The notes beneath the pieces were generated by a model that made no database searches, was not told the origin of the DNA, and worked only from the letters and a program-made list of their open reading frames with translations. The position numbers and the translations under genes are program-made. Shown here one piece after another: positions 2,654 through 36,176 of a stretch of DNA of 61,731 bases. The DNA lies in NCBI GenBank assembly GCA_944323365.1, contig CALUSG010000058.1:1-61731 (forward strand). The letters are read 5' to 3'. This DNA comes from Candidatus Gastranaerophilales bacterium (GTDB lineage Bacteria; Cyanobacteriota; Vampirovibrionia; Gastranaerophilales; Gastranaerophilaceae). Each line of letters opens with the position of its first letter. Position 1 is the stretch's first letter.

Positions 2654-4117
2654 ATGACAGAAGTTAGAGTTAGAATTGCACCGTCCCCGAGTGGAAATCT
2701 TCATATAGGTACTGCGAGAACGGCTTTATTTAATTATTTGTTCGCTAAAAAAAATAACGGAAAATTTGTTTTAAGAATTGAGGATACTGATGCAGAGCGA
2801 ACAAGTCAGGCTTATATTGACAATATTTTTGACAGTTTAAAAGCTTTAGGCTTAAATTGGGATGAAGGCCCGGATGTAGGAGGCCCTTACGGTCCTTATA
2901 CTCAGTCAGAAAGATTTGATATTTATCCGAAATACGCTCAAATACTATTAGAAAAAGGTTTTGCTTATGAGTGCTTTTGTACTCCTGAAGAATTGGAACA
3001 GGAAAAAGAAGAGGCTGCCAAAAATAAAAAACCTTATGTATATACTAAAAAGTGCGAAAATTTAACAGAAGAACAAAAAGCTAAATTACGTGCCGAAGGA
3101 AGAAAACCTGCTATTAGGTTTAATATCCAAAAAGCACAAAAAGCTTTCCATGATTCTTCTATGTTAATTTTTGATGACCTTGTCAAAGGTGAATTGCATA
3201 TGAATACTGATTTGCTAGGAGATTTTGTTATTATGAAATCTAATGGCACTCCGACTTATAACTTTGCGGTAGTTATTGATGATATGTTAATGAAAATATC
3301 TCATGTTATTCGTGGAGAAGATCATATTTCTAATACTTTTAAACAAATACTTATTTTCGAAGCTCTAGGTGCTGAAGTTCCACGTTTCGGACATTTGGGT
3401 ATGATTTTAGCCCCTGATAGAAGTAAACTTTCTAAACGCCACGGAGCTACTGCAGTTTCTGAATTCGTTGAAAAAGGATACTTGACCGATGCATTGATTA
3501 ACTTTGTTGCACTGCTGGGTTGGTCACCTTCTGACGGTCAGGAAATTAAATCTGTTGATCAAATCGCTCAGGATTTCAGAATTGGCGAGATATCTTCTTC
3601 AAATTCTATATTTGAGTATGATAAGTTGAACTGGATGAACAGCCATTATATCAAAATGCTTGAAATTGAAGATTTGAAGGAAAGATTAAAACCATATTTA
3701 ACTAAATACGATTTGTCTGAATTAACAGATGCTCAGTATACCCGTATGGTCGAAATTACACGTGAACCATTGACTTTATTGTCTGATATTACTGATGCAG
3801 TACCATATTTCTTTGGTTTGGATGTTGAAATCGAACCGGATGTTCAAACTGAAGTTCTTGATACTGATGTGTCCCAAAATGTTTTGAAAGAATTTGTAAA
3901 ACAAGCTGAAAACTGGGATTTTTCAGAAGAAAATTTACATGAAAAACTCGAAGCTTTTCGTGGTGAATTTAAAGAAAAAGGTATCAAGCCTAAAGTTACT
4001 ATGTGGGCAATAAGAGCTGCTGTGACAGGCCGTACACGTGGTGCCGATATGACAGCTATTCTTGCTATTCTTGGTAAAGAACGTTCTATGCATAGAATTA
4101 AAAAAGCTATTAAATAG
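2654..4117 (+). CDS. gltX: Glutamate--tRNA ligase
   Basis: A 487-residue class I aminoacyl-tRNA synthetase that charges tRNA-Glu. The N-terminus has the HIGH-type signature APSPSGNLHIGTARTALFNY, and the KMSKS-type loop is SKLSKRHGA; length fits the family. The frame is open further upstream to a TTG at 2573, but the ATG at 2654 has GGAAGGG just before it and gives the normal family start. A terminator follows directly. Whether it also charges tRNA-Gln is not visible, but gatC is present at 28441, which fits a transamidation route for Gln-tRNA. Confidence 0.97.
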   Translation: MTEVRVRIAPSPSGNLHIGTARTALFNYLFAKKNNGKFVLRIEDTDAERTSQAYIDNIFDSLKALGLNWDEGPDVGGPYGPYTQSERFDIYPKYAQILLEKGFAYECFCTPEELEQEKEEAAKNKKPYVYTKKCENLTEEQKAKLRAEGRKPAIRFNIQKAQKAFHDSSMLIFDDLVKGELHMNTDLLGDFVIMKSNGTPTYNFAVVIDDMLMKISHVIRGEDHISNTFKQILIFEALGAEVPRFGHLGMILAPDRSKLSKRHGATAVSEFVEKGYLTDALINFVALLGWSPSDGQEIKSVDQIAQDFRIGEISSSNSIFEYDKLNWMNSHYIKMLEIEDLKERLKPYLTKYDLSELTDAQYTRMVEITREPLTLLSDITDAVPYFFGLDVEIEPDVQTEVLDTDVSQNVLKEFVKQAENWDFSEENLHEKLEAFRGEFKEKGIKPKVTMWAIRAAVTGRTRGADMTAILAILGKERSMHRIKKAIK

Positions 4118-33577: not shown

Positions 33578-33607
33578 GGCGGATTTTTATATTATTAAAA
33601 ATCCGTC
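33578..33607. terminator. Bidirectional terminator
   Basis: Stem GGCGGATTTTTA / TAAAAATCCGTC with one G-T pair, short loop and T run on the right. Serves the glycosylase gene and, on the minus strand, the unknown gene whose stop it overlaps. Confidence 0.7.
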
Positions 33608-34373
33608 AATTTTTTAGCATAATTTTATCTTTTTCTGTAAGATTTTTGTACATATTATTGAAAAAATCTGATAAATAATTGTTGTTTAACACTGTTTTTT
33701 TGCCTGACCAATTTGGATTAAACATTGTATTTAGTGCTAAAATGTTGGGCGTTCTATATTCACCAAATTCACAGCTAATATAAAAATGGCCTTCGTTCAT
33801 TTTTTTAATTAGTTTAGCAAATCCTTGCAGAAATTCCTGGCGTTCGTTTTGAATTTTTTCTTTGTATTGTTCTAAAAATTTATCAAAATCAGCTTTTGTC
33901 AGGGATAATTCGGAAAGCTCTTTAGTTTTCTTTTTTATTAATTCGTCATCTGAATGGAAAATCGGGTTCTGCCAATAATCATCCTCGACTTTGTAGACAA
34001 AATAGTCTAAGTTCTTTTCTTGACAGGCTTTTTCTAATTTGTCATAACCTTGCAAATCTATTACGGTATTTATTCCTGAATTTTTTAAAACATCTAAATA
34101 TTCAAGATTTTTTGAAATAGTTGCTCCTTTGTAAGAATCATTACCTATATTTACTAAATTGGGGATGTATACATCATCAATTGTGGCTGTGTCGTATACA
34201 TTACTTTTATAGTCCGGGATTATATTTGTGAGCATGCGGCTTCTTAAAGCTTCTCTTATAGCTTGCCCTCCTAGATAATCATCACCAAAGTGTTTTAATT
34301 CGTCATTAAAGTCTTCAAGGTTTACTGATGTAAAATTGATAATTTTTTTTGGTATGGATGCTAAGATTTTCAC
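33606..34373 (-). CDS. Putative cysteine-based (tyrosine/dual-specificity-like) phosphatase
   Basis: 255 residues, no recognised family overall. A segment reads GINTVIDLQGY, then FVYKVEDDYW, and later GHFYISCEFGEYRTPN. The last fits the C-x5-R(T/S) P-loop of protein tyrosine phosphatases (C201, R207), and the preceding beta strand and the IDL element fit the same fold. The Gly pattern is poorer than in classical PTPs, so activity is uncertain. N-terminus contains KIINFTSVN. It starts 32 bases after the membrane protein gene, so both depend on the upstream attenuator. Confidence 0.5.
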   Translation of the reverse strand: MKILASIPKKIINFTSVNLEDFNDELKHFGDDYLGGQAIREALRSRMLTNIIPDYKSNVYDTATIDDVYIPNLVNIGNDSYKGATISKNLEYLDVLKNSGINTVIDLQGYDKLEKACQEKNLDYFVYKVEDDYWQNPIFHSDDELIKKKTKELSELSLTKADFDKFLEQYKEKIQNERQEFLQGFAKLIKKMNEGHFYISCEFGEYRTPNILALNTMFNPNWSGKKTVLNNNYLSDFFNNMYKNLTEKDKIMLKN

Positions 34374-34405: not shown

Positions 34406-35608
34406 CTATTCTATTAATCCCGGTTCTAATTTTGAGCCGGTTATAAATTCTCTAAATATAAATTGAGCTTTGGGAAGACAATATGCTAAAAGAAAACTGC
34501 TTAAGGCTATGTTTGCCAAAATCGTAAAAGAACGTAGTTTGATTGATTTATTTGCAGCTTGTATTACGTTATTTTGTGCATATTTTTGAAATTTTTCAAT
34601 ATTATTTTTAAATTTTGCAAGCTCTTTTACATCAACATATGCCCTTGGATCCCGAACATTATTTTTTAGTAGTTTAATTTTATTATATTTTCCGGCAAGT
34701 TTTGTAAAAATTGAATTCGGATTGTTGTCAATAAAATCCAGCAAATCTTGAGCGGAATTTGATTCAGGAAGTTCTAGATTTTTATATTTAATTGAGGCTA
34801 AAAACCTTTTATCGGCAAGCATTTTTGGATCCAAATTAACATCAGTTATTTTGTTGAAAAGTTTTTCGAGTTGATTCGGGGCAACAAAATTCAAGTACAT
34901 CATGCCTGCCATTTTGAAGGCAAGATCAATGGCTTCATTTCTTTTGCGGGCAGTAACTATTCGGCCGACAGCATAACCTCCATCCGTTACGGCCATTTTT
35001 TGTACTGTTGTAAAATTATTTATTGTTGATGTTAAAGAGCTGCCAAATGAGGGCTCTTTCCTAAATTCGTTAAATGATTTTACTCCAAAATTTTTGATTT
35101 CGTTTTTTTTATATTTTTCCATTTTTTTGGCTGTTGAGGCAAATATTAGTTTTGGAATAACAAATCCCATTAATGCTATCGGAATTACTATTGATGATAT
35201 AAATTTTGTGTTCATCATTTTTTCAAAAATCTTTTGATTATTTTTTGCTTTAATCAAATCTTGGACGGCTTCGGGTGCTTTTTGTGCAAAATCTTTTATG
35301 TTTTTGTCAATGTTTTGAAATTTGTCATTCCCAAACAATTTCATGTTAATATCCGCATTTAAGCCTTTTGATTTTTTTATTAAATATTTTCCTATTTTAT
35401 CAATCAAAGGTATTCCGCCAAGCCATACGGCTGATACGGAGTATTCATCTATAAACCGCTCTCGTGCCCCAAGCCATGCTATTTTTTTATCACTTTTGTT
35501 TTGATTATAGGTCATTAAAACTTTTGCCGGTATTTCTATCCCGCAATCTCTTACTAAAAGTGGGTATATGCTTTTGTTATTTCCTATTGCTGATATTATA
35601 TTTAACAT
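34406..35608 (-). CDS. Membrane protein of unknown function
   Basis: 400 residues, Lys/Asn-rich, with at least two clear membrane helices (about 135-157, FISSIVIPIALMGFVIPK, and about 357-378, ILANIALSSFLLAYCLP) and weaker hydrophobic stretches near 228-240. A middle segment has EPSFGSSLTS. No known domain. Strong AAAGGAG Shine-Dalgarno, and directly upstream lies an attenuator-like terminator with a His-rich leader ORF. First structural gene of a two-gene operon. Confidence 0.7.
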   Translation of the reverse strand: MLNIISAIGNNKSIYPLLVRDCGIEIPAKVLMTYNQNKSDKKIAWLGARERFIDEYSVSAVWLGGIPLIDKIGKYLIKKSKGLNADINMKLFGNDKFQNIDKNIKDFAQKAPEAVQDLIKAKNNQKIFEKMMNTKFISSIVIPIALMGFVIPKLIFASTAKKMEKYKKNEIKNFGVKSFNEFRKEPSFGSSLTSTINNFTTVQKMAVTDGGYAVGRIVTARKRNEAIDLAFKMAGMMYLNFVAPNQLEKLFNKITDVNLDPKMLADKRFLASIKYKNLELPESNSAQDLLDFIDNNPNSIFTKLAGKYNKIKLLKNNVRDPRAYVDVKELAKFKNNIEKFQKYAQNNVIQAANKSIKLRSFTILANIALSSFLLAYCLPKAQFIFREFITGSKLEPGLIE

Positions 35609-35617
35609 TTTTTGACT

Positions 35618-35694
35618 CCTTTAAAAAAATAGCTTCCCAAAAATTTTTCGGGAAGCTTTGGTTTATACACAACACCATTTAACACAGCTGCCCG
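35618..35694 (-). promoter_or_regulatory. Attenuator: terminator hairpin with a competing antiterminator arm
   Basis: On the minus strand AGCTTCCC (35657-35650) and GGGAAGCT (35638-35631) form a perfect 8-bp stem followed by ATTTTTTT, a standard terminator, just before the Shine-Dalgarno of the membrane protein gene. An upstream segment CGGGCAGCT (35694-35686), inside the leader ORF, can instead pair with AGCTTCCCG in 8 of 9 positions. The two pairings exclude each other, as in amino-acid operon attenuators. The hairpin could also simply end transcripts of the 132-residue gene upstream. Confidence 0.55.
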
Positions 35695-35741
35695 CTATGT
35701 AAATGATGATGATGTAATTGTAAAGTCAGTATGTTGTTCAT
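35679..35741 (-). CDS. Putative leader peptide with four consecutive His codons
   Basis: A 20-residue ORF, MNNILTLQLHHHHLHSGQLC. Four CAT codons in a row, then one Leu and a fifth His. The ATG lies 8 bases after a predicted -10 box, so it would be translated from near the transcript end. The last codons overlap the antiterminator arm and a terminator follows 21 bases after the stop. By analogy with the his operon leader, a ribosome stalled at His codons would favour antitermination. The controlled genes are not His biosynthesis genes. Confidence 0.5.
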   Translation of the reverse strand: MNNILTLQLHHHHLHSGQLC

Positions 35742-35749
35742 GTTAGTTT

Positions 35750-35777
35750 ATAATATCATAATAATTTTAATTTGCAA
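35750..35777 (-). promoter_or_regulatory. Promoter of the leader-peptide transcript
   Basis: On the minus strand TTGCAA (35777-35772), 16-base spacer, TATTAT (35755-35750). The -35 box touches the stop codon of the 132-residue gene. Matches the TTGCAT-N16-TATAAT boxes of hup and the SNF2 gene. Confidence 0.55.
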
Positions 35778-36176
35778 CTATGCATAATAAATTCTTTTAC
35801 CTTTGTGAGGGAAACTTTTTACCTGTCCTATCAAATCTTGTTCTGCATTTATAATATTTTCTTCTTTTAAAAGTAAAAATTGATCTAAAAGATTTTTATT
35901 GCGATTTACTCCGAGTTCACCGGTTTTATAGTTTGTAAGATGAAAGTTCTCTAAAACCAGTCTTTCGCCTCTTTGTCCTTTTATTTTTGTAATAAATGAT
36001 TTAGGACTTCCCCAGGAAGAAATATTTTTAAGCTGTTCTATAAAATCCATTAAACAGTCATTATTTCTTGCCTGTAAAATAAGTTCTTTTTCAATAACAG
36101 GAATTAGTTTTGCTTTAAAACTTGGATTTAACTGTTTTTTAGGCTGATTGAACGCATAATTTGATGTTATTTGCAT
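35778..36176 (-). CDS. Unknown protein with N-terminal NPSFKAKL tag
   Basis: 132 residues. The N-terminus carries QLNPSFKAKLIP around residue 15-26, like the short motif of other unknown proteins in this window. The rest is a soluble, mixed-charge domain with no signal peptide or membrane helix and no family recognised. Shine-Dalgarno AGGAG before the ATG. On the same strand as the DUF167 gene 45 bases upstream. Confidence 0.65.
   Translation of the reverse strand: MQITSNYAFNQPKKQLNPSFKAKLIPVIEKELILQARNNDCLMDFIEQLKNISSWGSPKSFITKIKGQRGERLVLENFHLTNYKTGELGVNRNKNLLDQFLLLKEENIINAEQDLIGQVKSFPHKGKRIYYA

Follow-up and report, generated by a model that had tools for sequence, protein, structure and literature searches.

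A histidine-codon leader with the layout of an attenuator precedes a gene for a nearly histidine-free orphan protein in Gastranaerophilaceae

Introduction

Attenuation is a textbook mechanism of gene control, and most of the genes known to be under it serve the synthesis, transport or charging of the amino acid being sensed. The hisL leader of the gamma-Proteobacteria (Rfam RF00514) joins a His-codon leader peptide to mutually exclusive antiterminator and terminator helices and follows the logic of a response to charged tRNA-His; the locus that we describe here is alike in this layout and in its inferred response logic but differs in sequence, phylum and target, and most of its members also sequester the Shine-Dalgarno sequence. 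Candidate His attenuators of Firmicutes have three to five consecutive His codons before alternative hairpins, His T-boxes there control His transporters in His auxotrophs, and some attenuators sequester the ribosome-binding site rather than terminate (PMC9413887). Tandem His codons and, as we infer it for ours, histidine-responsive RNA control in auxotrophs are common to those systems and ours; however, the Firmicutes systems target his enzymes or transporters (PMC9413887), whereas the Gastranaerophilales system targets an orphan protein. The His leaders of hisS/hisZ paralogs in bacilli (PMC2965389) are alike in that a short His-rich ORF controls a gene outside the biosynthetic operon, but the target is another one, and by eye we saw no such leader at the Gastranaerophilales hisS loci inspected, hisS being another possible target.

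Two further ideas concern codon and residue choice. In selective isoacceptor charging, leader codons are chosen for their sensitivity to starvation (Elf et al.; PMC1183508), and biosynthetic enzymes show low cognate bias, avoiding the starved residue (PMC4209129). Our loci resemble both cases, having starvation-sensitive leader codons and proteins needed in starvation that avoid the starved residue; those descriptions are trends over biosynthetic enzymes, whereas here the leader codons correspond one for one to the excluded codons, in two classes of paralogous genes that act as each other's controls. We found no earlier description, in the literature searched, of leader codons paired with codons excluded from the gene itself. 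What we describe is a known mechanism in a new phylum-level instance with an unusual target.

Results

The leader locus in the window

The window, i.e., the whole 61,731-nt stretch of DNA analysed, is contig C58 of a 1.70-Mb assembly that is 97% complete, and the features given for it below all lie on its minus strand. The original prediction had proposed an attenuator of the hisL/trpL kind, and each of its elements is present in the DNA. The candidate promoter (35750..35777) comprises TTGCAA (35777-35772), 16 nt and TATTAT (35755-35750) with an extended -10 TG (TGATATTAT), for 9/12 matches. Taken alone this site is weak evidence, as such sites are common by chance (40 were found in a scan vs 27.1 +/- 5.5 expected); in relatives we saw by eye a TTGNAA / TGNTANNAT-like pattern at the same position. 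The predicted 20-residue leader peptide ORF (MNNILTLQLHHHHLHSGQLC*, 35679..35741) has four consecutive CAT codons plus a fifth, the His codons starting at 35714, 35711, 35708, 35705 and 35699. Its ATG almost coincides with the expected start site and has no clear Shine-Dalgarno sequence, and in many relatives AAAGGAAA precedes the ATG.

Beyond the leader is an intrinsic terminator (35623..35657) with a stem of 12 pairs (35657-35631), 8 of them in the G+C-rich part, followed by the T run ATTTTTTT (35630-35623). The antiterminator 5' arm CGGGCAGCT (35686..35694) can pair in 8/9 positions, just as had been proposed, with the 5' arm of the terminator, AGCTTCCCG (35649..35657), which is therefore a shared arm able to pair with 35694-35686 or with the 3' terminator arm. 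In the window this 8/9 pairing alone was not significant, being equalled in 5% of shuffles; the whole leader region folded far better than shuffles (z -5.3). Folding also gave a pause-type attenuation hairpin between the His-codon region and the post-leader segment (CATCATCATTTACATAGC / GCTGTGTTAAATGGTG, approximately 35669..35718), which would form if the ribosome were absent. The Shine-Dalgarno sequence AGGAG of the downstream 400-aa gene (35616..35620) is not sequestered in the window species. At gathering score nothing in the window matched Rfam, RF00514 and T-box included, and a search of six related loci with these two, up to E = 5, was also negative.

Upstream lies a gene of 132 aa (35778..36176), a neighbour only in the window's genus, with its stop codon abutting the candidate promoter. 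Read-through transcripts of that gene would end at the hairpin and promoter-like sites are common by chance, so the hairpin might merely terminate the 132-aa gene and the His codons might be fortuitous, a caution that the original prediction had itself raised and that can be weighed by comparison with other genomes.

Conservation of the leader

We took orthologs of the 400-aa gene from relatives and from the genome collection and removed duplicates, which left 45 upstream regions. Every one of the 45 distinct orthologs had a His-rich leader (3-7 His codons, in frame), vs a comparable ORF upstream of 3/151 other genes of the same loci, and it is this conservation that makes the case for an attenuator strong. 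The leader ORFs end 70-139 nt before the gene and are still present where the proteins have diverged to about 42% identity. Their peptides vary (e.g., LHHHSHSTLG, LHLHHHINLKRL, RHHHNHHHCH, TEHHHLHSNPEGLWILM), both CAT and CAC are used, and the number of His varies by whole codons. A DNA search with the leader sequence returned short weak matches only, three of them ortholog leaders, because the element is too diverged. A ribosome-mediated attenuator calls for a short ORF with tandem codons, and the counts above satisfy this, translation being inferred.

The same counts reject chance as the source of the His codons. In other genera the 132-aa gene is missing upstream while the leader, the alternative helices and the target gene remain, so the hairpin cannot serve only to end that gene, and the helices covary (below). 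As far as comparison of genomes can decide it, terminator-only duty for the 132-aa gene is already refuted by conservation, and we give it practically no credence.

Competing helices

Covariation was assessed on 40 aligned leaders. In the ON helix, which we call C:C', the stretch that immediately follows the His codons, reading CCTGAAAAGGCT across many genera and CCCTCGGG.AGCT in that of the window, is paired to one further downstream (AGCCTTTTCAGG / AGCTTCCCGGGG); 10/12 pairs have changed on both sides, and covariation was 0.425 vs 0.262 +/- 0.011 in shuffles (0/500), with at most 0.21 in a slid control. C' can alternatively pair with a third segment, C'', which is often followed by a T run and is then the terminator. 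CAATTC also has two partners, GAATTG after the leader stop and GAATTGGAG, the Shine-Dalgarno sequence of the gene. The OFF helices (C':C'' and CAATTC:Shine-Dalgarno) had a covariation of 0.272 vs 0.182 +/- 0.010 in shuffles (0/500). The hairpin containing the His codons, P1, showed no covariation beyond shuffles; an analogous helix was kept in 79% of cells in relatives, and P1 carries no weight in our argument. In the window, the helix made by the antiterminator 5' arm is homologous to C:C', and both helices open to the shared arm have covarying homologs. Covariation together with folding of the window thus meets the expectation of an antiterminator and a terminator or Shine-Dalgarno sequestor that share one arm and exclude each other. 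Alignment of related genomes had been set as a test in the original prediction, and the outcome was strongly favourable: relatives have kept the His run as well as the two pairings.

The Shine-Dalgarno sequence GAATTGGAG is sequestered by CAATTC in most relatives, where both transcription and translation appear, as judged from these pairings, to be attenuated. Some genera have no T run, and control there is possible only at translation. The window species and G007 have no CAATTC module and the terminator only, and transcription termination alone is a simplified form of the element.

HHHH-type motifs are able to bind metals and His residues occur in every leader, which raises the question of whether the His-rich nascent peptide itself does the sensing (a metal ion being one candidate) or works as a small protein. 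However, the number of His (3-7), their spacing and the remaining peptide are variable, those residues that are conserved at the C terminus (NLKRL, STLG) track the RNA arm CCTGAAAAGGCT or CCCTCGGG, and the His-free target and the anti-association with hisD, both described below, indicate histidine supply. We therefore consider a role of the peptide as such very improbable.

Predicted folding by ribosome position

Folding was predicted with the RNA cut 13 nt downstream of the stalled codon, a distance that we assumed, and we counted the specific competing helices in place of a simpler Shine-Dalgarno-core accessibility score, which gave mixed results. With the ribosome stalled at His2 the mean was 0.49 for C:C' and 0.34 for the Shine-Dalgarno helix; the corresponding values were 0.00 and 0.79 with the ribosome at the stop codon, and 0.08 and 0.72 with no ribosome, so that on average the predicted folds agree with the proposed switch. 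In the window, RNA made to the end of the terminator 5' arm was predicted to form the antiterminator if the ribosome stood at His2-His4 and none if it stood at the stop. At equilibrium, several relatives (e.g., L005, L021, and L059) showed no predicted switch. The window antiterminator is short, and at equilibrium the terminator wins, which means that transcription timing must matter.

The target gene and its distribution

The target gene (34406..35608) encodes an orphan protein of 400 aa that is helical, probably a membrane protein and without His, and its family is specific to Gastranaerophilaceae. No match passed the cut-offs when this protein was searched by sequence against Pfam, NCBIfam, PADLOC and PDB, and structure searches with its model (pLDDT 79.8, pTM 0.72), Foldseek included, found no credible relative; the best VIA-align Z was 6.8, a measure that is uninformative where helices are long. 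We saw no domain, fold or neighbour that would point to a specific biochemical role, such as that of a histidine transporter. The second gene (33606..34373) encodes 255 aa, has 3 His and is not His-depleted. Its match to Y_phosphatase3 (18.2 bits) was below the cut-off of 22.2, so that by sequence it resembles a tyrosine phosphatase, no more. This phosphatase-like gene lies 35-36 nt after the target in other species of the window's genus and is absent there in other genera, and the genes flanking the target also vary between genera, from which we take the unit to be the leader plus one gene. The locus had been described as a non-biosynthetic operon; non-biosynthetic stands, whereas operon does not, as there is a single target gene with a phosphatase-like follower only in the window's genus.

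A covariance model of the element found exactly one match per genome in 123/239 genomes of the family, and none in the genomes from the rest of the order that we searched. An ortholog of the target lay directly 3' of the match in all 30 loci returned and in 19/20 chosen distant loci, the twentieth match being truncated by a contig end. The model missed the window's genome (G000) and G007 because their leaders are of the terminator-only form.

Link to histidine

Two leaders read by eye together with the 123 covariance matches bring the leader-bearing genomes of the family to 125, while hisD is present in 64/239, and only three genomes (G012, G020, and G027) have both (Fisher p = 6e-21, uncorrected for phylogeny). 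The split between hisD and the leader recurs within genera, six vs six with no overlap in g22, and seven vs five with one overlap in g6. In the window's own genome there was no hisD match, and hisS is present. On this one marker we infer that leader-bearing genomes are mostly histidine auxotrophs, a prediction only. The single hisD of the window's genus (L063, G012:C10:29542-30756) had an E-value of 5e-181, vs about 1e-131 to 1e-153 elsewhere in the family, and sequence similarity of this kind suggests that G012 gained a his operon beside the leader-controlled gene.

The target proteins contain 35 His in 30,043 residues (0.12%), and 46/69 have no His at all; background proteins have 1.69% His and paralogs 0.72% and 0.80%. 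Judged by composition, part of the depletion is inherited, because the whole family is moderately His-poor (0.7-0.8%). The earlier observation that the target is not a His biosynthesis gene is right, but the target is not unrelated to histidine, given the absence of hisD and the nearly His-free protein.

Arginine sister genes and other paralogs

Paralogs at about 28-30% identity, which we call Arg-type, have a short ORF with tandem CGA-CGA or CGA-CGT arginine codons. They are spread across the order, argH-positive genomes included (L073/L147, L126-L145, L146-L157, L191-L198, and L205), and one is in the window's own genome (L073/L147; G000:C6:1827-3218 +; G000:C6:1854). Several have a terminator after the Arg leader, e.g., in L145, where MSKQLRRLANNFKKGLFI* is followed by CAAGACCTTTTATAATAGAAGGTCTTG and a T run. 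The Arg-type coding sequences have 35 CGN vs 476 AGR codons (6.8% CGN), and 36/50 genes are without CGN; the CGN share of Arg codons is 37.5% in His-type genes and 40.4% in the background. A third paralog group (about 500 aa) with no visible leader served as an internal control and showed no codon purging (28.8% CGN). Since Arg-type genes retain His and His-type genes retain CGN, codon exclusion matches the leader in both directions.

A second ORF with CGACGA lies directly upstream of most Arg-type genes (L127, L131, L139, L196, L202 and others; about 653-730 + in L145). Between families its peptide keeps a similar end (...LMNLIWGL*, ...LMNLSWGL*), as though the peptide itself were conserved, and this end could be an arrest sequence. 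Two further paralogs (G000:C62, L176 and L177; about 540-550 aa) had no visible leader and ordinary CGN use. In L056 the His-type gene (at 3307) is preceded in the same direction by an Arg-type paralog, whose ORF ends 372 nt before it, an arrangement that suggests, on sequence grounds, that the two specificities arose by tandem duplication. A divergent member, L195 (G046:C93), carries a small ORF rich in His (MNTLFTQAERHHHHN*) together with a hairpin resembling a terminator, and another His-rich stretch immediately precedes the gene, whose protein has 1 His in 461 residues; L195 is possibly an independent case of a His leader with a His-poor protein.

For the Arg-type paralog an anti-association with biosynthesis was tested with argH and failed; the gene is kept in argH-positive genomes, and the auxotrophy link does not extend to the sister gene.

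These Arg-type results bear on what the switch might report. Shunning CGN (6.8% vs 40% in the background) while using AGA freely is avoidance of one tRNA set, not of an amino acid, and this, like retention in argH-positive genomes, would fit a switch that reports loss of a specific tRNA (e.g., tRNA-His or CGN-reading tRNA-Arg cleaved by an anticodon nuclease that comes from a phage or a competitor), with codon-purged proteins that survive or counter the attack. However, a defence role does not predict that hisD-positive genomes hardly ever have the His-type gene, selective isoacceptor charging under starvation explains the bias without a nuclease (Elf and Ehrenberg, PMC1183508), and PADLOC returned nothing for the 400-aa protein and only a marginal hit for its sister. 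A response to tRNA damage is the main rival, which the hisD anti-association opposes for the His type and not for the Arg type; we hold it to be unlikely, though it cannot be set aside as readily as a role of the peptide.

Discussion

We are rather confident that the element is a charged-tRNA-His attenuator that switches on one gene, for a nearly His-free protein, during histidine starvation, a reading made without expression, start-site, ribosome-profiling or starvation data. The original prediction of attenuation is supported in outline, while actual sensing of charged tRNA-His, ribosome stalling and the direction of switching are inferred. With histidine present, the ribosome would reach the leader stop and cover the antiterminator arm, so that the terminator would form and the gene would be off; in most relatives the Shine-Dalgarno sequence would also be paired with CAATTC. 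With histidine absent, the ribosome would stall at the early His codons, the only state in which the antiterminator 5' arm CGGGCAGCT should be free, and the freed arm would pair with the terminator 5' arm and turn the gene on; in most relatives GAATTG would also remove CAATTC from the Shine-Dalgarno sequence. The nearly His-free helical membrane protein could then be made without histidine. By analogy with the RNA-controlled His transporters of auxotrophic Firmicutes (PMC9413887), we infer that it may aid histidine acquisition or survival without histidine.

Selective charging theory (PMC1183508) would account for leaders built on the first isoacceptor to be exhausted and, if extended, for sister genes that use AGA only. 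We lean, with less assurance, towards a broader proposal: Gastranaerophilales would have a set of paralogous starvation proteins, each under a leader that consists of the codons purged from that protein's own coding sequence (His or CGN), giving a tRNA-specific response that is separate from biosynthesis and that replaces the biosynthetic operon in auxotrophs. This predicts that leader and excluded codons match in further paralogs, and that swapping the leader would swap the signal.

What the proposed attenuator would control is an orphan protein family, retained almost exclusively in genomes that lack the histidine pathway. The coding sequence of the family is without what its leader would sense, which would make the selective-charging idea readable at single-gene resolution and would offer a way into the function of a large family, as yet uncharacterised, of common gut bacteria.
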